Virus record (IMG/VR): IMGVR_UViG_3300033153_005834 | Location: 1-22,519 of that record | Source of the DNA: a virus | DNA length: 22,519 bases | Strand: one strand, 5' to 3' | Part shown: positions 1-22,395 of the stretch, one piece after another | Layout of the letters: every line of letters starts with the position of its first letter | Position numbering within the stretch: position 1 is the stretch's first letter | Notes under the pieces: generated by a model | What the model was told of the DNA's origin: nothing | The model's database searches: none | What the model saw: the letters and a program-made list of their open reading frames with translations, nothing else | Made by a program: the position numbers and the translations under genes

Positions 1-1
1 A

Positions 2-223
2 GATGATTACATTAAATTTGTTATATCAAACTGGGAAGATTACTACATAGCTAAAGAAAAAGTTAAACAATGGAAGTCAGATGAATTCATCCCACCTCAG
101 ATAGCTTTCTCTCCAGTACATGATAATTTATCTATTCACTCCCTTATTGAAACAATGAAAGAGGATAAGCTATTCAATATTATATTAAATGTACAAATCC
201 ACAAATATATAAATGTAAGGTAA
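2..223 (+). CDS. queE: 7-carboxy-7-deazaguanine synthase QueE, C-terminal fragment (partial at window start)
   Basis: The reading frame is open from base 2 to a TAA at 221-223, giving the last 73 residues of a protein whose start lies outside the window. The fragment has the typical end of QueE: an FSPVHDNL segment (family FSPVYGKL/LSPV type), a helix with an ESLxxxxKED-like spacing, and a final NVQIHKYI motif matching the QLHKYIW-type C-terminus of the family. QueE is a radical SAM enzyme that contracts the ring of 6-carboxytetrahydropterin to 7-carboxy-7-deazaguanine, the precursor that QueC turns into preQ0. The radical SAM cysteines would be upstream and cannot be seen. The call is supported by folE, queC and a dpdA-like gene directly downstream. 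Confidence 0.78.
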   Translation, partial: DDYIKFVISNWEDYYIAKEKVKQWKSDEFIPPQIAFSPVHDNLSIHSLIETMKEDKLFNIILNVQIHKYINVR

Positions 224-249
224 TTAATTTAGGAATAATGAAATTAATT
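222..249. repeat. AT-rich inverted repeat after queE
   Basis: AATTAATTT at 222-230 is the exact reverse complement of AAATTAATT at 241-249, with a 10-nt spacer. It overlaps the queE stop codon and the first 64-bp repeat. In the second repeat copy only the inner 5 bp of the stem are kept. It has no GC stem and no following U-run, so an intrinsic terminator is unlikely. An operator, or an UP-like AT-rich element just upstream of the -35 box, is more plausible. Confidence 0.45.
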
Positions 250-250
250 C

Positions 251-280
251 TTGACAGCTATGAGTTGTTTATGCTATAGC
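251..280 (+). promoter_or_regulatory. Sigma-70-like promoter P1 (extended -10), first repeat copy
   Basis: A perfect TTGACA -35 box lies at 251-256. Eighteen bases further on is TATAGC (275-280), preceded by TG one base upstream (272-273), giving an extended -10 TGCTATAGC. The expected start of transcription is near 287. A 14-bp perfect palindrome, TATGCTATAGCATA (270-283), covers the -10. AGCTATG (256-262) and CATAGCT (280-286) form a further inverted pair. A regulator binding there would block RNA polymerase. Confidence 0.72.
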
Positions 281-314
281 ATAGCTTAAAATTTAGGAAT
301 AATGAAATTAATTC

Positions 315-344
315 TTGACAGCTATGAGTTGTTTATGCTATAGC
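315..344 (+). promoter_or_regulatory. Sigma-70-like promoter P2 (extended -10), second repeat copy
   Basis: This is the exact copy of P1 shifted by 64 bp: TTGACA at 315-320, an 18-nt spacer, and the TG plus TATAGC extended -10 at 336-344. The same 14-bp palindrome covers 334-347. The predicted start is near 351, about 40 bp before the first start codon at 393. It probably drives the folE-to-dpdA operon, and possibly beyond, because no terminator is visible downstream. Confidence 0.72.
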
Positions 345-379
345 ATAGCTTAATCAGTTCGTAACCAACAACCCCTAAT

Positions 380-385
380 AGGAGG
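380..385 (+). promoter_or_regulatory. Strong Shine-Dalgarno AGGAGG for the gene at 393
   Basis: A full AGGAGG lies 7 nt before the ATG at 393. It fixes the start of the first gene behind the tandem promoters and shows that the host has a canonical anti-SD sequence. Confidence 0.85.
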
Positions 386-392
386 AAGTAGC

Positions 393-959
393 ATGATTCC
401 AGAGAATGAGATTGACATGGGTGGCTTGAGAGAAGCCGTAACCGCTTTGAACAATACCACACTGCTCGAAGCAAAGATTAAAGTTGTCGGTTTGTCCAAG
501 AAAGTCATGATCGGACAATTTGCTGATGGTGTAGAAACTATCGCAAAAGACGGTAAAGATGGGGAACTCCCCGAAGTCGTCAAACAATTCTACAACAATA
601 TCTTTCGGGATGAGCTTCAATCTGAGGGTGGAGGGGAAGCACCACCTGAGACTGAGACCGACCCTGATCCCGGGGAAGACAAACCAGCAGAAGAGAAGGA
701 CACAAAGCCCGATGAGAAAAAGAAAGACAAGCCCCCGGCAAAGAAGAAAGACCCGAAGCCAAAGTCTCGGTATGGTCATGTCCTGAACTCACAAGCCGGT
801 AACATGGATGACCTGTTCTTCAAGGGTGCTAAACTTGCAGAGATTGCCGAGAAGGTCGGCGTCAAAGTTGGTCGTGTTCGTGGACATCTTAATCATCTCC
901 GCAAGGACAAAGAACTCACAATCAATGAAATTGATGGCTTGTTTAAGGTAGCCGAATGA
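393..959 (+). CDS. Linker protein with C-terminal helix-turn-helix-like domain; phage protein of unknown function
   Basis: 188 residues in three parts. Residues 1-75 are a small mostly helical domain (AVTALNNT, then KIKVVGLSKK, then LPEVVKQFYNN). Residues 76-125 are a low-complexity Pro/Glu/Asp/Lys linker, acidic first and strongly basic (KKKDKPPAKKKD) near the end. Residues 138-188 are a compact domain reading KLAEIAEKVGVKVGRVRGHL, which looks like an HTH for DNA binding. I recall similar N-terminal domains in phage hypothetical proteins but cannot name a function. It is the first gene behind the tandem promoters, with a perfect SD, so a regulatory or DNA-organising role is possible (inference). 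It is visibly richer in G+C than the genes after it. Its stop overlaps the folE start (ATGA at 956). Confidence 0.7.
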   Translation: MIPENEIDMGGLREAVTALNNTTLLEAKIKVVGLSKKVMIGQFADGVETIAKDGKDGELPEVVKQFYNNIFRDELQSEGGGEAPPETETDPDPGEDKPAEEKDTKPDEKKKDKPPAKKKDPKPKSRYGHVLNSQAGNMDDLFFKGAKLAEIAEKVGVKVGRVRGHLNHLRKDKELTINEIDGLFKVAE

Positions 960-1519
960 AAGAATCAGTTGTCGAAGCCTGTCTTGGGCAAATGATAACT
1001 GCAGGGTTGGGGTTTTCACTTGAGGACCCCAACCTTATTGATACTCCCAAGAGAATGGCAAAGATGTATTGTCAGGAGTTCTTTACTAATGTTGGTAAAG
1101 AGTTTACCGATTTCAAATCCTTTCCTAATGAAGAAGGTTATACTGAAATTATAGTATTCCCTCCTATATCTTTCATATCTACCTATTCACACCATTTTCT
1201 TCCTTTCTTTGGAACAGCTTGGTTGGCTTACATACCAAATGATAAACTTATAGGTGCTTCCAAACCAGCTCGACTCGTTCAGCACTATGCTGCCAGACCT
1301 CAATTACAGGAGAATCTTTGCAATCAAGTCATTGATGCCTTTGAAAATGCTATGCGACCCGAAGGATGTATGGTTGTTATGGAAGCTGTTCATATGTGTA
1401 TGATCAGCAGAGGTGTCAAACAACCTAACAATGGTGGTATGATTACATCCTCTATTAGAGGGAATTTCTTCAAAGATTCAGTTAAACAAGAAGCCCTCAA
1501 ATTGATGGGATTAAAGTAA
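956..1519 (+). CDS. folE: GTP cyclohydrolase I (FolE) with a substituted zinc ligand
   Basis: 187 residues, of normal length for the GCYH-I catalytic unit, which converts GTP to 7,8-dihydroneopterin triphosphate, the first step towards preQ0. Visible family signatures are TPKRMAKMY near residue 30, HHFLPFFG at 79-86, YIPNDKLIGASKPARL at 92-107 (Ser and Lys that bind the triphosphate), RPQLQEN at 114-120, and EAVHMCMISRGV at 143-154. The last of these holds the equivalents of E. coli His179, Cys181 and Arg185. The oddity is at residue 77. The family reads S-L-C-E-H-H, with Cys110 as zinc ligand, but here it is S-T-Y-S-H-H, so this Cys is Tyr. The start overlaps the upstream stop and the stop overlaps the next ATG, so it sits inside a tight operon with queC and dpdA. 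Confidence 0.92.
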   Translation: MKESVVEACLGQMITAGLGFSLEDPNLIDTPKRMAKMYCQEFFTNVGKEFTDFKSFPNEEGYTEIIVFPPISFISTYSHHFLPFFGTAWLAYIPNDKLIGASKPARLVQHYAARPQLQENLCNQVIDAFENAMRPEGCMVVMEAVHMCMISRGVKQPNNGGMITSSIRGNFFKDSVKQEALKLMGLK

Positions 1520-2049
1520 TGTCAACCTCAGGAGTAAGTAATATTAAACAAATACCTGACCTTGTTAATCTAATATACTCTGAAGCTAAAGAAGGTAATA
1601 TTTTAGACATAGGGTGTGGTAGAGGTATACTTGGATATTTACTTAAAGTGTTGCACCCTGGTAGATTCACACTTACAGGTATTGATCCTGGTATACCTCC
1701 TAAAGTATATGAAACAGTAATGAAAGTGTATGATTGGATATATGAAATAGATGTGGATGCTTTCATTGATGAGATACTACCTACAATATCTGTCCCTTAT
1801 ATTACAGTTGCTAACCATATATTTGAACATATTCATAAGGACAGAGCTTTACAGATAATAAACAGGTTGAAAATCATATCTAATATAATTATATTGGGAT
1901 TTCCTAATCCTATAACAGGTTACAAATACAATTTATTCTCCAAAGATTATCACACTCATAAATGGGGAGCTACCCCAGATATAATGTTTTCTATAAACTT
2001 CAAAAAAGTCACTGAAATTAAAGGTAATCAGGTATTCATATGGAAATAG
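1519..2049 (+). CDS. Class I SAM-dependent methyltransferase in the deazaguanine operon
   Basis: 176 residues with the Rossmann methyltransferase pattern. Motif I is ILDIGCGRG at 28-36, the acidic end of strand 2 is in TGIDPG (53-58), and a post-motif region reads NHIFEHIHKD (99-108) in the style of Methyltransf_11/23 proteins. A hydrophobic strand IIILGFPNP follows. No DNA-methylase (N/D)PP(Y/F) motif is present, so it is not an ordinary adenine or cytosine-N4 methylase. The gene sits between folE and a radical SAM gene, with a TAATG start at 1519 and a 10-bp overlap at the end. This suggests it methylates a deazaguanine intermediate or the base after insertion (inference). It is more AT-rich than folE. 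It has a shorter C-terminal part than the methyltransferase at 21814 but the same FEHI-type motif. Confidence 0.8.
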   Translation: MSTSGVSNIKQIPDLVNLIYSEAKEGNILDIGCGRGILGYLLKVLHPGRFTLTGIDPGIPPKVYETVMKVYDWIYEIDVDAFIDEILPTISVPYITVANHIFEHIHKDRALQIINRLKIISNIIILGFPNPITGYKYNLFSKDYHTHKWGATPDIMFSINFKKVTEIKGNQVFIWK

Positions 2050-3026
2050 TTAAAGCTGAAATTCTGTGGACAAGGAAGTGTCCCTCAAATTGTGAGTATT
2101 GTTCCATGGCTACAGGTGAAGAAAATACAATGTCAGCTAAACAATGGTGCAAAGGGATTGATCAACTACATAAACTTGGTTGTGGATTCATAGCATTTTA
2201 TGGTGCTGAACCTCTTGCTGACTTCGATAAATTACCAGAAGTTGTAGGGTATGCTGAAAGTATTGGTATCCACACAACTGTTATTACATCTGGTCGAGTG
2301 AATAAAGCCAAAGAAAAGATAAAAGAACTGTATGATAATGGTGCTAAATCATTATCTGTCAGTTATGACATTAATACTGGAGAATTAGCAGCTGGTAAGA
2401 AAATGTCATATGGGGCACCACTATTAAAAGAATGGATGAAATACCCTAACATTAGAGACGGGGCAGCCATCACTACACTGACAGCGTTAAACTTTGGTGC
2501 ATTCCCAGAGCATGTTAAACAAATGTCTAACGAAGGTATCTGGACCTTCTTCGACATCATTCATCCTGATCTCAATCATCCTGGTACAAAATGTAAGAAC
2601 TTTAAAGGGTTTGAAAGCTTATTGTTTTGTAGATGGGAACATGAAACACATTTAAAAAACATGTTCATTAAATTGAAACACATCAAGGAGAATAATTTAC
2701 TCCTTCATAATAGTGAATCATTCATCGATTCAATAATGGGTGATGATTACCTTTTCAATTATAATTGGAACTGTGCAAAGTATGATGAATTTCCATCATG
2801 GATAACAATTGATTATAATGGTCAAGTCAGACCTTGTGATGATTTTTATATGCCCGGTAAATACAATATGCATCTCTTACGACTTGTAGATCATTGGGAA
2901 GAATGGAAGAAAAGATGGAAAGAGATAGTGATCAAACATTGTAATGGTTGTTGCTGGAACACACACATGGATGCTCATTCCATTAAAAGAGGGGACATTC
3001 CCTTCTCAAACTATGTTCATACATAG
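2040..3026 (+). CDS. Radical SAM enzyme with Cys-rich (SPASM/twitch-like) C-terminus
   Basis: 328 residues. The radical SAM CxxxCxxC motif is C14-C18-C21 (CPSNCEYC). The SAM-binding GGEP motif appears as GAEP at 55-58, with an ITSGR strand at 82-86. The C-terminal part has cysteines at 245, 266, 301, 304 and 305 (VRPCDDF, then HCNGCCWN). These are placed like the auxiliary iron-sulfur cluster ligands of SPASM or twitch domains, and two more Cys sit at 185 and 197. It is clearly not QueE, which is encoded just upstream of 223. Lying between the methyltransferase and queC, it is a candidate for chemistry on the side chain at C7 of the deazaguanine (inference). Its start lies inside the methyltransferase gene. 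Confidence 0.88.
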   Translation: MEIVKAEILWTRKCPSNCEYCSMATGEENTMSAKQWCKGIDQLHKLGCGFIAFYGAEPLADFDKLPEVVGYAESIGIHTTVITSGRVNKAKEKIKELYDNGAKSLSVSYDINTGELAAGKKMSYGAPLLKEWMKYPNIRDGAAITTLTALNFGAFPEHVKQMSNEGIWTFFDIIHPDLNHPGTKCKNFKGFESLLFCRWEHETHLKNMFIKLKHIKENNLLLHNSESFIDSIMGDDYLFNYNWNCAKYDEFPSWITIDYNGQVRPCDDFYMPGKYNMHLLRLVDHWEEWKKRWKEIVIKHCNGCCWNTHMDAHSIKRGDIPFSNYVHT

Positions 3027-3034
3027 GAGAAAGT

Positions 3035-3739
3035 ATGCCAGTTATACTCTGCTGTTCCGGTGGTGTAGATTCCTATATCGCATATCATTGGTTAATTGAT
3101 TTTTATACATCAACACAAGGAGTTGATTATACCCCTTATGTACATCCTGTTTACTTTCATCTCAATACTCCCTACTCAGACTTAGAAGTTTCTACTGTAA
3201 AACAACTGATACCAAATACTATTGTTGATCACAGTCTTAATTTGAAGGATAGACAAGAGGAGGGTCAAAATGCTTATATTCCTTTTCGCAATCTTTATCT
3301 TGCTATGCTTGCAGAAAAATATGGAGACAATATTGTTATTGCTGGTATTAAAGGAGACAATGTATCTGATAAGACTCCCGAAATATTTAGGTGGATAAGT
3401 ACAATGCTAACTAATATAAAGGGTAGTAAAATTAAAGTATGGTCTCCTTTCTGGAACATGACTAAAACACAGATTGTAAAATGGTATTTAAAGAAAGATT
3501 TACCAGTAGAAAAACTGTTAGCCACAGTATCTTGTTACTCTGGTCAATTATCTTCTTGTAATAAATGTCCGTCTTGTTTCAGAAAATGGGTAGCATTGAC
3601 TTTGAATGGTATTAAACTTGATTTTGATAATGAAACCATGTTGGATGAATATTATAGTAGGGCATTACATAATGAATTTGATGAGGAGAGGAATAGTGAC
3701 ATACTCAAAGCTATCAAAGGTTATTGCAGTAGACATTGA
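3035..3739 (+). CDS. queC: 7-cyano-7-deazaguanine (preQ0) synthase QueC
   Basis: 234 residues, the usual QueC length. It has the PP-loop ATP-binding motif SGGVDS at 8-13, the family IPFRN motif at 82-86, and the C-terminal zinc site CYSG (Cys167) followed by C175, C178 and C181 in CNKCPSC. QueC uses ATP and ammonia to convert 7-carboxy-7-deazaguanine to the nitrile preQ0. The start at 3035 has an AGGAGAAAGT ribosome binding site. The last 44 bp overlap the next gene in another frame. No fusion to an amidotransferase-like domain is present. Together with folE and queE this gives three of the four enzymes for preQ0. Confidence 0.93.
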   Translation: MPVILCCSGGVDSYIAYHWLIDFYTSTQGVDYTPYVHPVYFHLNTPYSDLEVSTVKQLIPNTIVDHSLNLKDRQEEGQNAYIPFRNLYLAMLAEKYGDNIVIAGIKGDNVSDKTPEIFRWISTMLTNIKGSKIKVWSPFWNMTKTQIVKWYLKKDLPVEKLLATVSCYSGQLSSCNKCPSCFRKWVALTLNGIKLDFDNETMLDEYYSRALHNEFDEERNSDILKAIKGYCSRH

Positions 3740-4025
3740 TGGGGTTCTCACTTTTGAGACAGAGGAATGGGGAGAAGAAGTTTACATGGCTCGTACCCCA
3801 AGACTAAAGAATATAAAAAGGGTAAAAAGATTACATGATTCCGGTTACAGAATTATTCTATTTACTTCTCGACATGAGGAAGACAAGAATATTACCTTGA
3901 AATGGCTCTCTAAACATAAAGTAGTGTATGATGAGATCATCTTTGGCAAACCACATTATGACTTCTTTGTTGATGATCGGGCTTACTCTGACTTTTTTAA
4001 TCTAATGAGGGGGTTGGATAAATGA
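3696..4025 (+). CDS. Small HAD-superfamily phosphatase, GTG start
   Basis: 109 residues when started at the GTG at 3696, which has a very good ribosome binding site (GAGGAGAGG, 3683-3691). The open frame extends further upstream, but those residues overlap queC and look non-native. HAD motifs are all present: DIDG with Asp13 and Asp15 (nucleophile and acid/base), a Thr in LFTSRH (57), Lys85, and FVDDRA with Asp93 and Asp94. There is no room for a large cap, so it is a capless type related to small phosphatases such as polynucleotide 3'-phosphatase or capsular-phosphatase-like HADs. Position between queC and dpdA suggests it removes phosphate from a nucleotide-level intermediate or product (inference). 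It ends in ATGA, overlapping dpdA. Confidence 0.8.
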   Translation: MTYSKLSKVIAVDIDGVLTFETEEWGEEVYMARTPRLKNIKRVKRLHDSGYRIILFTSRHEEDKNITLKWLSKHKVVYDEIIFGKPHYDFFVDDRAYSDFFNLMRGLDK

Positions 4026-4795
4026 AAATCTTTCTTGATTCTGGGGCATTCTCAGCAAATAAAGGGGGACACCCTATAAACATAGACAATTACATGAGCT
4101 ATATTAAATTGCATATGGATAAAATTGAAGTCTATGCAAATCTTGATGTGATTGGAGATGTTGAACAGACGTGGAAGAATCAAGAGATCATGGAAGATGC
4201 TGGGTTCACTCCGTTACCTGTATTTCATCTTGAAGACCCTTTCCCCGAGTATCTGATACGGTGTCTCAATTATAAATACTTCTGCTTAGGTGGCATGGCT
4301 GGTGAAACTGAAAAGGCTCGTATTAAATTCTTCAAGAAGTCATGGGAATTAATCTGTGATACACCGTTAAATTTACCTAAATGTAAAGTACATGGATTCG
4401 GATTGAATGCTCCAAGTTTAGTTCAAAGATTCCCTTGGTATAGTGTTGATAGTTCAAGCTGGGTTTACTATGCTCGACTCGGTATTATCATCATGCCGAA
4501 GACAAGTTCTGATGGGTATAAATATCGATATGATAAACCACCTGTGGTTATGTTTGTGTCTTCAAGGAAAGATCCAGCAACATGCAAGGAACATGAGCAT
4601 GTAAAACTATTGTCAGAGATGGAGTTAGCTAAAGTAGTAAAATACTTTGGTGATATTGGTTACACTTTAGAGGAGCTTGCTGAAGATCACAAAGCACGGG
4701 ACAGAGTGAATATGATTTACTTCTTGGATATGTGTCAAGCTTCACCTGATTATCCTTGGTCATACAAAGAGAAACAAGCTAATCTTTTCGCATGA
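4022..4795 (+). CDS. dpdA: DpdA-like DNA deazaguanine transglycosylase (TGT superfamily)
   Basis: 257 residues with the active-site landmarks of tRNA-guanine transglycosylases. LDSGAFSA at 5-12 matches the SDSGGFQ loop, with Asp6 as the likely general acid/base. FHLEDPFPEY lies at 68-77. LGGMAGETE at 89-97 matches the GG(L/M)AVGE base-binding motif. KVHGFGL at 122-128 is followed by YSVDSSSW at 140-147, with Asp143 as the likely nucleophile. Phage and island DpdA proteins exchange guanine in DNA for preQ0-type bases. The gene follows folE, queC and a phosphatase, so this role fits better than tRNA modification. It is short, and the CxCxxC zinc site of tRNA enzymes is not seen. The last residues are QANLF-Ala, a possible sliding-clamp-binding motif. 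Confidence 0.85.
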   Translation: MKIFLDSGAFSANKGGHPINIDNYMSYIKLHMDKIEVYANLDVIGDVEQTWKNQEIMEDAGFTPLPVFHLEDPFPEYLIRCLNYKYFCLGGMAGETEKARIKFFKKSWELICDTPLNLPKCKVHGFGLNAPSLVQRFPWYSVDSSSWVYYARLGIIIMPKTSSDGYKYRYDKPPVVMFVSSRKDPATCKEHEHVKLLSEMELAKVVKYFGDIGYTLEELAEDHKARDRVNMIYFLDMCQASPDYPWSYKEKQANLFA

Positions 4796-16799: not shown

Positions 16800-16977
16800 G
16801 ACTCAAAACCTTAGAAGAAAGACGGTAATCTGTCAGAAGCAGGAACTAAAGAAATGGAGAAAGATTCTAAAGGACGATATGTATCGAATAATACATAAAT
16901 CCACTGAACACATAGATTTAAGAACAAATAAATTAACTGGTAAATCAATAATTATAGGGGAGAAAGGATTAAAATGA
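16786..16977 (+). CDS. Small basic protein
   Basis: 63 residues with ATGAGGAAAC as RBS region inside the previous gene. The N-terminal half is strongly basic and helical (RTQNLRRKTVICQKQELKKWRKILKDD), and the C-terminal half reads STEHIDLRTNKLTGKSIIIG. No motif is recognised. The stop overlaps the methyltransferase start (ATGA at 16974), so it belongs to the same transcription unit. Confidence 0.55.
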   Translation: MASIRTQNLRRKTVICQKQELKKWRKILKDDMYRIIHKSTEHIDLRTNKLTGKSIIIGEKGLK

Positions 16978-17564
16978 CAAGTGACCTAACAGTAGACGAA
17001 AGATGGGAGAAGTATCGAATCAATTATCCATATGTCAGGAAAATGAATGAGTTTCTTCCAGTCATGATGGAGATTATAAAGATGTTCCACACTCACACCT
17101 ATGTTGAATTGGGTATACGAGGTGGGTACACCTTCAACCAGATAGCACCCCTTGTTAGAAAAGCCGTAGCTGTGGAGTTGAAAGGAAGAAATCTGAAAGG
17201 GGTGTATAAAGAATCAAACACAACACATCTTTGCATGTCCACTGATCAAGCGGCTGAAGAATGGGAAGAAAACGGATCAGATCCAATAGACTTTTTGTTT
17301 ATTGATGCAGATCACACCCATGAACAAGCTAAGAAAGACTTTGATAACTGGTCAAAGTTTGTGTCCCCTTGTGGTATCATAGCGTTGCATGATACCTATC
17401 CCCCATCCAAGAAGATAAATACATACTGCACTGTTTGGAAACTTGCCCGTGAGATACATACATCCGAAGAGTACAAAGATTGGGAGATATTCACATTCCC
17501 AGGAACATGGGTAGGTCTGTCATTGGTTAGAAACGCTGTGAACCATTTACACTGGTATAAATAA
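16974..17564 (+). CDS. Class I SAM methyltransferase, Methyltransf_24-like
   Basis: 196 residues. Motif I is YVELGIRGGYTF (43-54). The strand 4 motif is DFLFIDADHTHEQAKKD (106-122), where Asp111/Asp113 and His114 are typical of the Methyltransf_24 and O-methyltransferase-like group. IALHDTYPP (136-144) follows. That group includes sugar and small-molecule O-methyltransferases, for example those in cell-surface and antibiotic pathways. It precedes two GT-B glycosyltransferases with a strong RBS between, so methylation of a glycan or glycosylated base is likely (inference). The first strand has Glu in place of Asp, as is common in this group. Confidence 0.82.
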   Translation: MTSDLTVDERWEKYRINYPYVRKMNEFLPVMMEIIKMFHTHTYVELGIRGGYTFNQIAPLVRKAVAVELKGRNLKGVYKESNTTHLCMSTDQAAEEWEENGSDPIDFLFIDADHTHEQAKKDFDNWSKFVSPCGIIALHDTYPPSKKINTYCTVWKLAREIHTSEEYKDWEIFTFPGTWVGLSLVRNAVNHLHWYK

Positions 17565-17577
17565 AGGAGGATAAAAG

Positions 17578-18879
17578 ATGAAAATAGCAATACTGACCAA
17601 TTTTATGGAATTCAATCCTGGCTACAGTCTAACAGGTATTGTACAAGATCAGATAAGGATGCTCTGTTCACACGGTCATGAGGTACATCTGTTTGTCAAT
17701 GATCAGTTTCATGGTAAGGGTAACTTCACAGCACTGCCAGAAGGAGATGCTGAAAAGTATGGATTGAATGAGGATAATTACCAAATCCGAAAGCTCATAC
17801 CATTTTCCCATCTTAAAGATTATAAATCAATAAGTGAACTTACCGATGATCATAAAAAAACCATAGCAGATACAAAAGATGTGCTGGTCAAGGAATTAAA
17901 GGACTTTGATTTAGCATTCACCCATGACTTTATCTTCCAGGGATGGTTCATGCCATATGGACTTGCTTGTAAAGAAGCAACTCCGCACTTACCTACTACA
18001 AGATGGATGCATTGGATACACAGTGTACCATCTACAGCATATGACTGGTGGCGAATCAGAGATTACGGACCACGACATAAAATAATATTCCCTAACATTA
18101 CAGCAAGGCAACAAGTAGTAGAACAATTTGCTGGGTGGCCTGAGGATATGAGGTGTATACACCACATCAAAGACCCAAGATCATGGTTTGGATTCGATAA
18201 AGAGACCTGTGATTTCATTAAAAAGTATCCAGCTGTCATGCAAAGCACCTATGTTAAAATATATCCAGCATCTGTTGATAGATTAGCCGCAAAGAGATTA
18301 CAATATGTTATATCCATCATGGCTAACATTAAAAAGAAAGCTCATACTGTATGCTTAGTTGTTGCTAACCAATGGGCTACAACCAGACAACATAAACAGA
18401 ATGTTGAAAAGTATAAACAAGCTGCAAGGAGAGAAGGACTTGTACCTGGAGAAGATTTAATATTTACATCTGATCTCGGTAAAGAATATGAAGCAGGTGT
18501 TCCTCAATATATGATCAGGAATTTAATGCTCCTGTCAAACTTGTTCATCTTTCCTACAAAAGAGGAATCATTTGGATTAGTTCTCCCTGAAGCCGCTTTG
18601 TCAGGTGTATTAACTGTCTCTAATAAATCTCTTGGTACTCTGATTGAAGTTGCAGGGAATGAAGGGCTGTTCTTTGAATTCGGATCACATCACATGGCTT
18701 TCCATAATGAAAACATGGTACGTTATCTCAACGATCTTGCCCTTATCATTCTCGGAAGATTCAGAGAGAATGAAGCATTACGGATCAAAACATTCTCCAG
18801 ACAGAAATACAACTGGGACACTTTGTATAATCATGAATATCTTCCTGTGATGGCTGAATCGAAAACTTGGGGGCTATAA
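17578..18879 (+). CDS. GT-B glycosyltransferase, GT4-like
   Basis: 433 residues, RBS AAAGGAGGA. The N-terminal Rossmann domain begins MKIAILTNFM, with a GIVQDQIRMLCSHGHEVHLF segment (20-39), as GT4 enzymes do. The C-terminal domain has a typical strand-loop (VCLVVANQW, near 258-266) and the EX7E-type donor site KEESFGLVLPEAALSG (328-343, Glu330 and Glu338), followed by SNKSLGTLIEV. It would move a sugar from a nucleotide donor with retention. The acceptor is unknown: phage DNA base, phage structural protein or a host glycan are all possible. It ends at 18879, overlapping the next start. Confidence 0.88.
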   Translation: MKIAILTNFMEFNPGYSLTGIVQDQIRMLCSHGHEVHLFVNDQFHGKGNFTALPEGDAEKYGLNEDNYQIRKLIPFSHLKDYKSISELTDDHKKTIADTKDVLVKELKDFDLAFTHDFIFQGWFMPYGLACKEATPHLPTTRWMHWIHSVPSTAYDWWRIRDYGPRHKIIFPNITARQQVVEQFAGWPEDMRCIHHIKDPRSWFGFDKETCDFIKKYPAVMQSTYVKIYPASVDRLAAKRLQYVISIMANIKKKAHTVCLVVANQWATTRQHKQNVEKYKQAARREGLVPGEDLIFTSDLGKEYEAGVPQYMIRNLMLLSNLFIFPTKEESFGLVLPEAALSGVLTVSNKSLGTLIEVAGNEGLFFEFGSHHMAFHNENMVRYLNDLALIILGRFRENEALRIKTFSRQKYNWDTLYNHEYLPVMAESKTWGL

Positions 18880-19988
18880 TGAGACTGGTTTTCATGTTCT
18901 ATTGTAAACATCATGCTCCAATTAATTCTCGACCTCCCTGGAATCCCAAAAGAAGGTGTTCAGAGCGTTGGGATCAATACTGGACAGAAGGTACATTCTG
19001 GTTGATTAATCGTATGATAGAAGAAGGGATTATAGACGAATGTATGGTCTTCATTGAATCTGCTAAGGGTCCTGGTAAAATGAACATACCATACAAAAAC
19101 ATATACGGATTTGTGATGCCTGAGATTTCTTACCTAAATGATTATCTCAGGGAAGACGATGTTATATGGATAAGAGGAGGATTTCGCTCGTGGCATAATT
19201 TCATGGTTGAATATCACATGGACAAATGGAAGATACTCTATGGTGCTAATACAGGTAGAGAAAGTTGGCACTGGTGGGACATAATTCTTGATGACTTGCA
19301 CAATAATCCTCCTCATATGGATAGATTCAACAGAATCTGGCTGCACTTTGAAAAGCCAACCCATCCATTAATCTTTTATCCAGTAGATATAGAAAAGAGG
19401 TATGACATCTGTATTGGTGCTTCTCATGTCCACGATAAAAAAGGGCAATGGAGAACTATCAGAGCATTACATAAATACAAAGAAATATATGGTAAAAATC
19501 TGAAAGCTATCTTCCCTTGTGGAGGGGGTAGAGGAGTACAAACTACCCCTGCTCTACAATTACTACCAGAATTAGATGTTGTTCAGCCCGGGTTTGTACC
19601 CAGAGAGGAATTAAGAACTATTTATAATCAATCAAAACTATTTGTTCATCTTGGTGAAGGAGGTCAGAATGATAGAGGTCCTCTTGAAGCAATGAGATGT
19701 GGAACACCTGTTGTTATTACTGCACCTAAACGTCATGGTAGGGTTACATATGAAAATCCAAATGTGTCTCATGTAATTAAAAATAAGAACGATTATGCTG
19801 AGATAGCTTTTGTTTTTGACAGCCTTATTAAAAAAGATACTAAAACTATTAAACAACAAACAATAGATTGGCACGAAGATACAAGTGGAATAAACTATGC
19901 ATCCTTACCTCAGATGGGGAAGATATTTAAGTTCTTCTCACTTCACCCCAATGTTGACAAAGAAGCCCTTAAAAAGGAGTTTGTATAA
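18879..19988 (+). CDS. GT-B glycosyltransferase, group 1 / GT4-like (second copy)
   Basis: 369 residues from the ATG at 18879, which overlaps the upstream stop (TAATG). An in-frame ATG 12 bp upstream at 18867 is possible but has no better RBS. The N-terminal half is divergent (MRLVFMFYCKHH, later EDDVIWIRGGFRSWH). The C-terminal half is a clear glycosyltransferase donor domain: DICIGASHVHDKKGQWRTI (176-194), PCGGGRG, then FVPREELRTIYNQSKLFVHL (239-258), then RGPLEAMRCGTPVV (266-279) with Glu270 as the E of the EX7E region. It lies in tandem with the GT at 17578, suggesting a multi-sugar product or two steps on one acceptor. Confidence 0.85.
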   Translation: MRLVFMFYCKHHAPINSRPPWNPKRRCSERWDQYWTEGTFWLINRMIEEGIIDECMVFIESAKGPGKMNIPYKNIYGFVMPEISYLNDYLREDDVIWIRGGFRSWHNFMVEYHMDKWKILYGANTGRESWHWWDIILDDLHNNPPHMDRFNRIWLHFEKPTHPLIFYPVDIEKRYDICIGASHVHDKKGQWRTIRALHKYKEIYGKNLKAIFPCGGGRGVQTTPALQLLPELDVVQPGFVPREELRTIYNQSKLFVHLGEGGQNDRGPLEAMRCGTPVVITAPKRHGRVTYENPNVSHVIKNKNDYAEIAFVFDSLIKKDTKTIKQQTIDWHEDTSGINYASLPQMGKIFKFFSLHPNVDKEALKKEFV

Positions 19989-19989
19989 A

Positions 19990-20886
19990 ATGAAAATACA
20001 TCATATAATGCATACTGGGGCAAATAATTTCTACTGGCTTTCTGTTCTCAACGAACTCCGAACTGTATATGGAATCCAGGTAAAGATAAGTAGACTTAAT
20101 CATTATGAGAGGGAAGGAAACTGGGACGGAGATGTTCTTACTTATCAGACTTTCCCAGATGAAAACCAGCCAAGTAAATTTAATCCCAAACTCACAGAAA
20201 AAACAGACAAGTTGTTTAACGAGTTTCAGGGTCTGAAGATACTTGTAGACTCCCATGATGATGGTGACAAAGATGCTTTTACCAGGTTCAATAACTGGTC
20301 TACACCAAGAATAAAAGCCTTTCCATCGAAACGGTTTATGAAAGATTATAATGTAGTATTAAAAACAACCTTCTCCTCAGAACTCATGGAGATATATCCA
20401 GATAAATATGATAGAGATATTATATTAAGTTGTAAATTTGGGGAACATCGATATCATCACGACATACGAGATGGAATCAAACACCAATTAGAAAAGTTTT
20501 CCGATGTAAACTTTGAATGGGAACCTGGAAGAGAAGCCTTTATCGATAGTCTTAGAAAGACATTGATATCCATTGCAGCACCTGGACATGGACAGCATAC
20601 TGCTACTCACCAATGTACCTTCAGAAGTGGTGCTTTATTATTTACTCATACCTCTTTCAATGACATCCATTATCTCCCTCATTATGATCTTGTCGATGGT
20701 GTTGATTTTATATCCTATGATCTGTTCAACTTTACAGATAAACTTAAATGGGTTTTAAGTAAGCCTGATATGATTCACAATATTAGAATGAATGGACAAC
20801 ATGCTCTTGAACAAGGATACAATTTGACAATAGAGTTGAGAGAACACACATCTATCACAATACCTCCGGAGTATTATAAAAAATGA
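19990..20886 (+). CDS. Glycosyltransferase-like protein (exostosin/CAP10-like C-terminal half)
   Basis: 298 residues from the ATG at 19990, chosen because AAGGAG lies 10 nt upstream. The open frame reaches back to 19897, but that part overlaps the preceding gene. It begins MKIHHIMHTGANNFYW, a GT-B-like N-terminal strand. A middle region has FNPKLTEKTDKLFNEF, and a C-terminal part reads SIAAPGHGQHTATHQCTFRS then GALLFTHTSFNDIHYLPHYD. This resembles the donor-binding region of exostosin or CAP10/GT90-type proteins, where an Arg/Glu-rich segment precedes a conserved aromatic loop. No EX7E is seen, so the call is tentative. It ends in ATGA, overlapping the radical SAM gene. Confidence 0.55.
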   Translation: MKIHHIMHTGANNFYWLSVLNELRTVYGIQVKISRLNHYEREGNWDGDVLTYQTFPDENQPSKFNPKLTEKTDKLFNEFQGLKILVDSHDDGDKDAFTRFNNWSTPRIKAFPSKRFMKDYNVVLKTTFSSELMEIYPDKYDRDIILSCKFGEHRYHHDIRDGIKHQLEKFSDVNFEWEPGREAFIDSLRKTLISIAAPGHGQHTATHQCTFRSGALLFTHTSFNDIHYLPHYDLVDGVDFISYDLFNFTDKLKWVLSKPDMIHNIRMNGQHALEQGYNLTIELREHTSITIPPEYYKK

Positions 20887-21803
20887 CTGAACTTAAATAC
20901 ACCTCAACATATTACAAATTCTTAAAGCACCCTGATCAACTGAAATCATATTGTGAGGGAACTGGAAGAACAATTATTTCCACTCATATATCCCCAGAGG
21001 GTTCCTGCAATTTAGGTTGTCATTATTGTTCTGTATCAAGGAGGGATACCCATGAAAGAATAGAATTAGGGGTCATACAGGACTATATCACAATGTTGTC
21101 ATTTCGTGGATTAAAAGCAGTTATAATAACAGGTGGAGGAGAACCCACATTATATCCAGAATTCGATGAGCTTGTTCGTTGGATCCACAGTAGAGAATTG
21201 AAGATAGCTCTAATAACAAACGGTACTTGTAAAAATGTGCTATGGGATTTATTTACTTGGGTCCGCATAAGTTTAAATAACTTGGATAAAGTATATTTCC
21301 CTAAAATAAAAGGTACATTAGGTTGTAGTATTATATATACTGGTCAAAGTCTTGGGTATTTCAAAGAGGTTGAAAGACTAATTAAAGGAACAGATGTAGA
21401 ATATGTCCGAGTGGTTCCTGATTGTAGAGGGAATCAAAAAGAACTGATAAAAAACCATCTGAGAATAGATGAAATATTAAAGGAACTTAATAACAATATA
21501 TTCTTCCATCAACACAAACTACACAGAACACCAGAAGCAAATGTATGTCATCAAGCTTACTTCAGACCCTATTTAAGTGAAGTAAATGGAGGAACAGTCT
21601 TTCCATGTGACAGCTTGGTTCTGAATAATTCAAGTAGACACTTCACCTCTGATTATGCTATCTGTAAAGCAGAAGATATTTTAAACTTTATGGATGGTAA
21701 AATTAAAATGAAATTCAACCCCATTAATAAATGTAGTGGGTGTGTATTTACAAATACAGTGGATGTTTTAAATGCTATTAAAATGCCAATGACACATTTC
21801 TAA
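20883..21803 (+). CDS. Radical SAM enzyme with Cys-rich C-terminus (second)
   Basis: 306 residues. The CxxxCxxC motif is C42-C46-C49 (CNLGCHYC), and the SAM-binding GGGEPT is canonical at 84-89. ITNGT near 111-115 is the usual strand 3 motif. The C-terminal region has Cys222, 242 (FPCDS), 261, 284 and 287 (CSGC), consistent with auxiliary cluster(s) as in SPASM or twitch proteins. It is not a deazaguanine biosynthesis enzyme by motif and shares with the radical SAM protein at 2040 only the general layout. It sits between glycosyltransferases and a methyltransferase, so it may act on a sugar or on a modified base (inference). The start overlaps the preceding stop. Confidence 0.88.
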   Translation: MTELKYTSTYYKFLKHPDQLKSYCEGTGRTIISTHISPEGSCNLGCHYCSVSRRDTHERIELGVIQDYITMLSFRGLKAVIITGGGEPTLYPEFDELVRWIHSRELKIALITNGTCKNVLWDLFTWVRISLNNLDKVYFPKIKGTLGCSIIYTGQSLGYFKEVERLIKGTDVEYVRVVPDCRGNQKELIKNHLRIDEILKELNNNIFFHQHKLHRTPEANVCHQAYFRPYLSEVNGGTVFPCDSLVLNNSSRHFTSDYAICKAEDILNFMDGKIKMKFNPINKCSGCVFTNTVDVLNAIKMPMTHF

Positions 21804-21813
21804 TTACAGATGG

Positions 21814-22395
21814 ATGCCAGAACTGACAATCCCTATGTGTGCCAGAATAATTGAGATATTAGATATAAAAGATGAAGATAAAATACTTGACTATGGATGT
21901 GCAAAAGGATTCTATGTAAAAGCCTTCAGACTGTTGCACAAACAATGCTGGGGATATGATACCAGTAAGTATGCTTTGAGTCAGGTAAGTGCAAGTATTA
22001 AAAGATTTGTATCAAATGATTTAAAAGCTCTCGGTAATTTTAAAATAGTGATCGCCAAGGATGTTTTTGAACATATTGATTACTCTAAGATAGACAGCAT
22101 TTTAAAAGAGATTTCTGAAATTACTGAGTACTTATTATGTATAATCCCACTTGGATATAGAGGTAAATATATTGTGCCTGCTTACGAATTAGATAAAACT
22201 CACATCATAAAAGAATCATTAAGTTGGTGGAAGAAGAAACTTGATAAATGTGGGTTCAATATCCTATCCTCTGAATATAATATGAAGCACATCAAACAAA
22301 ATTACAGTCAATGGAAAAAAGGTAATGGATTTATTATCTGCAAACAAAGGAATGAAAATGAAACCTATGCCAGTAGTGATTCTATCTTACAATAG
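21814..22395 (+). CDS. Class I SAM methyltransferase, Methyltransf_11-like
   Basis: 193 residues. Motif I is ILDYGCAKG (24-32), the strand 2 end is GYDTS (47-51), and AKDVFEHIDY (81-90) is the FEHI-type motif shared with the methyltransferase at 1519. A C-terminal part reads IIPLGYRGKYI, then ELDKTHI and SLSWWKKKLDKCGF, the last typical of Methyltransf_11/25 small-molecule methyltransferases. No DNA methylase catalytic motif is seen. It directly follows the radical SAM gene, repeating the methyltransferase/radical SAM pairing. The first 38 bp of the next gene lie within its end. The RBS is weak. Confidence 0.83.
   Translation: MPELTIPMCARIIEILDIKDEDKILDYGCAKGFYVKAFRLLHKQCWGYDTSKYALSQVSASIKRFVSNDLKALGNFKIVIAKDVFEHIDYSKIDSILKEISEITEYLLCIIPLGYRGKYIVPAYELDKTHIIKESLSWWKKKLDKCGFNILSSEYNMKHIKQNYSQWKKGNGFIICKQRNENETYASSDSILQ

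Follow-up and report, generated by a model that had tools for sequence, protein, structure and literature searches.

Phage 9g and CAjan encode a 7-cyano-7-deazaguanine (preQ0)/archaeosine DNA modification system, in which FolE, QueE, a QueC-family protein and DpdA are specified by one operon (PMC6884629). The route by which FolE, QueD and QueE produce 7-carboxy-7-deazaguanine (CDG) is established (PMC13329287). An operon of the same kind is present in the viral contig IMGVR_UViG_3300033153_005834, which was analysed over its whole length of 22,519 bp and is here called the window, and QueD is encoded in its relatives. The window departs from the 9g and CAjan system in that canonical QueC or Gat-QueC is exchanged for a non-canonical QueC-family protein, which we named QueC-R, and in that a radical S-adenosylmethionine (SAM) enzyme (rSAM), a small HAD phosphatase and, optionally, a methyltransferase are encoded in addition; the set described for 9g and CAjan includes none of these three (PMC6884629). 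The finding is best described as the exchange of QueC for a cassette in the viral pathway of 7-deazaguanine DNA modification, with the chemistry of the base being predicted.

Which host nucleases fail is decided by the bases in the phage DNA, and new bases have previously come from the reading of such operons. The phage proteins DpdL, DpdM and DpdN (Cui et al. 2023) reportedly give methylated, formylated, carboxy or unsubstituted bases. By this account they resemble the window, in which extra enzymes would likewise alter a 7-deazaguanine base. To our knowledge, none of the three is a radical SAM enzyme.

The QueC family (PF06508) includes QueC, Cap9 and QatC. The signature of canonical QueC was defined in a study from 2026, in which mutants of the E. 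coli enzyme revealed that preQ0 synthesis depends on Y35, R99, Y131 and Y189, with an aromatic ring reported to be required at Y131 (PMC13329287). In Cap9, the residue equivalent to the Tyr of the YPDC motif stacks on the deazaguanine, and the one equivalent to the Asp reads the Watson-Crick edge of the base (PMC13279940). Judged by its sequence, the gene in the window that had been read as queC encodes a member of this family that fails the tests for a canonical QueC. With the QueC equivalog model TIGR00364, which has a cut-off of 150.3 bits, it reaches 56.9 bits and its relatives 46-58 bits; the canonical-type viral QueCs tested score 167-234 bits. The window protein reads VSDK where the canonical protein reads YPDC, Y35 is replaced by Leu and Y131 by Val (E. 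coli QueC numbering), and the four positions of YxQxHxxE hold Leu, Thr, Tyr and Glu. Among 41 QueC-R sequences, the Tyr of YPDC is Val in 33 and the Cys is Lys in 32. Both residues are kept in 26/26 canonical-type viral QueCs, as are the equivalents of Y35, R99, Y131 and Y189. Given the roles of the Tyr and Asp in Cap9, the residue that reads the base thus stays in QueC-R and the one that stacks on it goes. The SGGVDS and IPFRN motifs and four zinc cysteines in the CxxCxxC arrangement are invariant in the QueC-R family.

QueC-R has the fold, the SGGxDS loop, the zinc cysteines, the RN of VPxRN and the Asp of YPDC in common with the other PF06508 members, but has lost the Tyr and Cys of YPDC and the Tyr and His of YxQxHxxE, and it has an HAD partner to which it is often fused (PMC13329287, PMC13279940). 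Neither HAD nor DpdA is mentioned in the QueC-family paper. The tree of the QueC-family proteins from these viruses showed a two-way split (SH-aLRT 99), with the rSAM-linked genes nearly all on one side. QueC-R represents a further line in this family, in which modification of proteins has been shown or proposed in addition to the making of bases. Viral genes that pass a Pfam QueC search without the canonical signature are likely to be misannotated, and some "preQ0 pathway" calls may be wrong. Non-canonical QueCs are also seen elsewhere. In the cultured Bacteroides phage BS162P1 (L169; OP172706, 8989-10615), an xPDK protein adjoins a DpdA-like gene with QueE near, all three annotated as hypothetical, and no rSAM was detected nearby. 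Four dpdA loci without rSAM (L086, L088, L111 and L112) each contain two different non-canonical QueC-family genes, an arrangement that may represent another pathway variant.

An alignment-based scan of IMG/VR identified 40 loci with relatives of the rSAM, or 41 counting the window, all of the contigs in the study being fragments. A QueC-family gene is present in 39/41 of these loci, dpdA in 36/41, queE and folE in 33/41 each, and queD, here the cluster assigned to queD by sequence, in 26/41. The QueC gene usually follows immediately after the rSAM gene, rSAM-QueC-R-HAD-dpdA is a conserved order, and the neighbourhood is kept by proteins down to about 30% identity. To obtain an unbiased sample, we collected 74 distinct contigs through DpdA alone, without using rSAM in the search. 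The rSAM is encoded by 17/25 of those with QueC-R and by 0/49 of those without it (Fisher p 5e-11, kinship ignored), and never beside a canonical QueC (0/32). HAD is present in 17/17 contigs with rSAM versus 9/57 without, and QueD, QueE and FolE did not differ in frequency with the presence of rSAM in this sample. The two QueC types exclude each other, as none of 97 contigs contains both. Among the eight QueC-R contigs without rSAM, L075 and L081 are truncated, as they begin right beside the gene; in L063 and L064 the place of rSAM is taken by another gene, which in L064 encodes a methyltransferase-like protein.

We consider it probable that the operon yields a 7-deazaguanine for the viral DNA, that rSAM, QueC-R and HAD act as a cassette in place of QueC, and that the base is not plain preQ0. 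FolE and QueE, with QueD located off the fragment, would supply CDG, which we infer to be the substrate of the cassette. The step from CDG to preQ0, which canonical QueC carries out in other dpdA viruses, would be taken over by rSAM, QueC-R and HAD. QueC-R most likely still activates the carboxylate with ATP, since the SGGxDS loop, the zinc sites and the aspartate that reads the guanine edge are intact. The rSAM and HAD would turn the final base into something beyond plain preQ0, and after optional methylation DpdA would exchange the base for guanine in the viral DNA. Three points lead us to prefer a base other than preQ0: QueC has lost two essential residues, this change accompanies two added enzymes, and the canonical QueC is then absent. 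The conservation of the rSAM in dpdA operons makes a step beyond plain preQ0 insertion likely, in line with the further-modified base of the original prediction; methylation, which was suggested there as one form of it, is not a core prediction because the methyltransferase is optional, and the other form suggested, a carbon-extended side chain, is possible. Uncultured viruses of a widespread group are thus predicted to contain a base that is not in the known set, and the cassette provides a short list of genes for expression.

Several observations weigh against a base other than preQ0 made by the cassette. The window QueC keeps R99, E42, D133 and Y189, as well as the zinc cysteines, and QueC-R may hence still synthesize preQ0. 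The strongest counter-evidence comes from the small metagenome-assembled genome (MAG) G011, whose single clear QueC is of the QueC-R type and is encoded beside FolE2, QueD and QueE, with a tRNA-guanine transglycosylase (TGT) elsewhere, suggesting that this type may serve a tRNA pathway. QueF was not found in G011, nor above the cut-off in the viral records tested, where the weak matches were FolE proteins, which are fold relatives of QueF. It is possible, although we find it doubtful, that QueC-R is an ordinary preQ0 synthase that has evolved fast, and that rSAM, HAD and any methyltransferase act later, on preQ0 or on preQ0 in the DNA. This would yield a decorated preQ0, which comes close to the original prediction. 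The situation in G011 and the retention of the catalytic residues R99, D133 and Y189 and of the zinc site agree with this, as does the single QueC-family gene that accompanies QueD, QueE and FolE in most rSAM loci, but the QueC type switches closely with rSAM and HAD, and Y35 and Y131, both essential in E. coli QueC, are both replaced in the window protein, the latter in a position reported to need an aromatic ring (PMC13329287). Five rSAM loci contain QueC-R paired with Gat-QueC, which would fit preQ0 supply; however, the Gat-QueC of phage 9g reportedly produces preQ0 itself (PMC6884629), and a separate preQ0 enzyme is therefore not required in a Gat-QueC locus.

The cassette was seen in the sequences of uncultured viruses. 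The original prediction had proposed a neighbourhood survey for DpdA and named, as evidence to the contrary, a match of the two extra enzymes to a tRNA or unrelated pathway in homologous operons without dpdA. For the rSAM, the survey did not bring up such a pattern, with reservations for three of the five rSAM loci that lack this dpdA type: two of the five are cut off, and L039, L045 and L048 are large contigs. A search for TGT (PF01702) in these five contigs gave nothing. In L039 and L045, proteins that contain DSGG/DSGGF motifs resemble TGT on inspection, but no Pfam or informative PHROG match supports this. Supported branches of the DpdA tree force only three changes of rSAM state, and a test of rSAM against QueC type in independent pairs on this tree was not significant, there being too few pairs. 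As the contigs are related and only three changes are forced, the Fisher p-values overstate the case. Shared descent could in principle account for the whole association, with a viral lineage carrying the genes side by side without joint action. We regard this as most improbable, since on the best DpdA tree the rSAM state changes 11 times and the QueC type 7 times, the neighbourhood persists at about 30% identity, and several loci encode QueC-HAD fusions.

The structure model of QueC-R has the fold of QueC, Cap9 and QatC, with Z-scores of 19.0 to Cap9 with its protein product, 17.9 to QatC and 17.2 to QueC. Gaps of 1-2 in Z are small, and the fold comparison does not convincingly separate the three. 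Peptides are common substrates of SPASM/Twitch radical SAM enzymes. Together with the first rank of Cap9, this could mean that the cassette is unrelated to the DNA base, and that QueC-R, like Cap9, puts CDG on a protein, while rSAM and HAD act on the resulting conjugate or on some unrelated compound, with counter-defence as one example of a role. Such a role appears very unlikely, as the order rSAM-QueC-R-HAD-dpdA is conserved, the cassette takes over the position that canonical QueC has in this operon, the Z gaps are small, no candidate target protein was found, and YxDC is kept in Cap9 (PMC13329287) but lost in QueC-R. Cap9 of type IV CBASS is recognized by YxDC and an adjacent CD-NTase gene; QueC-R has VSDK at this site and rSAM, HAD and dpdA as neighbours. 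Within the explanation that we prefer, in which the cassette makes a DNA base, we tentatively put forward a more specific and rather unlikely chemistry by analogy with Cap9. As Cap9 does with a protein N-terminus, QueC-R would form an amide between the 7-carboxyl of the deazaguanine and an amine, and no nitrile; rSAM and HAD would prepare or trim the amine, and DpdA would insert an N-substituted 7-amido-7-deazaguanine, with methylation being optional. If true, this would be a class of DNA base not yet described.

The rSAM contains the CX3CX2C motif and, in its C-terminal part, C245-x15-G-x4-C266 and C301-x2-C304, a combination characteristic of SPASM/Twitch radical SAM enzymes. The auxiliary-cluster cysteines had been noted in the original prediction and are conserved: C14, C18, C21, C245, C266 and C304 are invariant and C301 is present in at least 90% of 34 full-length sequences, in which the charged residues K5, E7, D172, K184 and others are also invariant. 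The SPASM domain model gives 14.3 bits, below its 27-bit cut-off. The best whole-length match to the AlphaFold2 model (pLDDT 94) was BlsE (PDB 7vob; Z 24.8, 301 residues, 3.5 A), followed by a match with Z 21.6. The window rSAM has the radical SAM barrel in common with BlsE, a cytosylglucuronate decarboxylase that acts as a radical decarboxylase of a nucleoside, and with viperin-like enzymes. At an identity to BlsE of 15%, the modelled likeness shows fold, not function. TIGR04466 (BlsE) is not among the 25 best NCBIfam matches listed. A role as a second QueE was rejected, as no QueE family is among these 25 matches either.

No curated NCBIfam family includes the rSAM, and a PHROG match at E 0.1 or better is likewise absent. 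Against 50,697 phage records, the window rSAM gave three partial matches, none of them full-length, and a diverged relative gave none. A scan with the single protein also retrieved no relatives. A scan of prokaryote genomes found nothing, which is weak evidence as its exact patterns overlooked the rSAM of L144 in the same collection, and a search of 397 genomes of one phylum recovered the L144 locus alone. Two cassettes are located on contigs binned in MAGs, one of Sulfuricurvum and one of Borrarchaeum, and these may be viral contigs binned alongside. The Borrarchaeum contig (L145, 179 kb), possibly of an archaeal virus or a misbinned phage, combines a diverged rSAM, QueC-R, DpdA, a clamp and a polymerase, and its QueC-R is long enough for an HAD fusion. 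A second, diverged radical SAM paralogue is found beside or near Gat-QueC in L034, L035 and L037.

The HAD protein, which the original prediction mentioned in passing as an extra gene, is by the sequence evidence a core partner of QueC-R, a role overlooked there: it tracks with rSAM and QueC-R, and a single fused QueC-HAD protein is encoded in L011, L021, L024, L025, L042, L045, L048 and L049. Its translation contains the nucleophile motif VDIDGVLT, in agreement with DxDGxxT, and it matches an HAD profile; a match to EcbF-BcbF (E 6e-10) is below the cut-off. The true start of the gene is probably inside the reading frame, since the first ATG overlaps queC.

The methyltransferase had been placed in the pathway on a par with the rSAM. 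The rSAM is conserved in dpdA operons, but the methyltransferase is optional, and we rejected it as a core gene since the type in the window occurs in 5 loci only; methyltransferases of two other types were found in 6 and 4 loci. After deduplication, the type of the window is present in 4 rSAM loci and in no other dpdA locus, and a further scan found it only in these viruses, weak matches aside. In an alignment with four relatives, the motif IV position is occupied by FEH, the EH loop of the small-molecule type, and NPPY is absent; a role as a DNA amino-methyltransferase was therefore rejected. A methylated product is plausible for the window virus, but not for the whole family. The window protein is an ordinary class I methyltransferase and in this would differ from the preQ1 methyltransferase DpdM, which is reported to have an unusual fold.

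The genes in the window form a tight operon on the plus strand, in which neighbouring genes overlap or abut (Table 1). The coordinates and reading frames are as originally given and the family assignments hold, apart from the non-canonical nature of queC; the observation is thus confirmed and the interpretation drawn from it partly supported. As the window is the complete fragment, queD and the greater part of queE fall outside it on the left, and the 73 residues of QueE that are left match QueE models.

Table 1. Features of the modification operon in the window.
Feature	Coordinates	Strand	Evidence
queE (7-carboxy-7-deazaguanine synthase), 3' end only	2..223	+	TIGR03963 E 1.9e-10; TIGR04349 E 8e-10; phrog_2076
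Exact tandem duplication, 64-nt unit; candidate promoter/operator	226..353	+	Repeat and palindrome found in sequence
Helix-turn-helix (HTH)-like gene, conserved between queE and folE	393..959	+	Weak HTH matches; relatives in 21/41 rSAM loci
folE, GTP cyclohydrolase I	956..1519	+	PF01227 E 8e-45
Class I SAM methyltransferase, accessory	1519..2049	+	PF13489 E 1e-5, slightly below Pfam cut-off
Radical SAM enzyme (rSAM), C-terminal Twitch/SPASM-like auxiliary cluster site	2040..3026	+	PF04055 E 4e-12
QueC-R, non-canonical QueC-family ligase	3035..3739	+	PF06508 E 1e-19
Small HAD phosphatase, DxDGxxT motif	about 3606..4025	+	phrog_1238 E 2e-21
dpdA, 7-deazaguanine DNA transglycosylase, phage 9g (DpdA1) type	4022..4795	+	phrog_887 E 5e-47

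The DpdA of the window shows 38% identity to phage 9g DpdA across 89% of the query (E 1e-30) and is, by homology over its length, a homologue of the proven DNA transglycosylase. The closest relative of the window, contig G006, is collinear with it from the HTH-like gene through dpdA, methyltransferase included, with protein identities of 55-73% (FolE 73, methyltransferase 64, rSAM 58, QueC 55, HAD 60 and DpdA 71). Just upstream of the HTH-like gene, each unit of the tandem duplication contains TTGACA and the 14-nt palindrome TATGCTATAGCATA, and the duplication is possibly a doubled promoter and operator of the operon. In a consensus scan, promoter-like sites occurred at about chance frequency.

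Unusual gene structures were seen in some of the related loci. QueE has an intein-like interruption with an HNH domain near the radical SAM cysteine motif in L022 (6832-8544) and L049 (7149-8720). FolE is fused to an N-terminal phosphoribosyltransferase-like domain in L024 (12496-13431) and L144 (2565-3452), with a match to phrog_8995 in L144, and in Azospirillum picis a phosphoribosyltransferase-like gene (L148, 8737-9186) adjoins a QueC-R type gene. Downstream of the operon, the window contains a replication module with a clamp, a polymerase, a clamp loader, RecA and others, as labelled by sequence inspection. A second cluster at 16974-22395 encodes two group 1 glycosyltransferases and a likely third, together with methyltransferases and an unrelated radical SAM protein (20883-21803). 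Relatives in G006 were seen for the first glycosyltransferases and for the methyltransferase at 16974, and none for this radical SAM protein.

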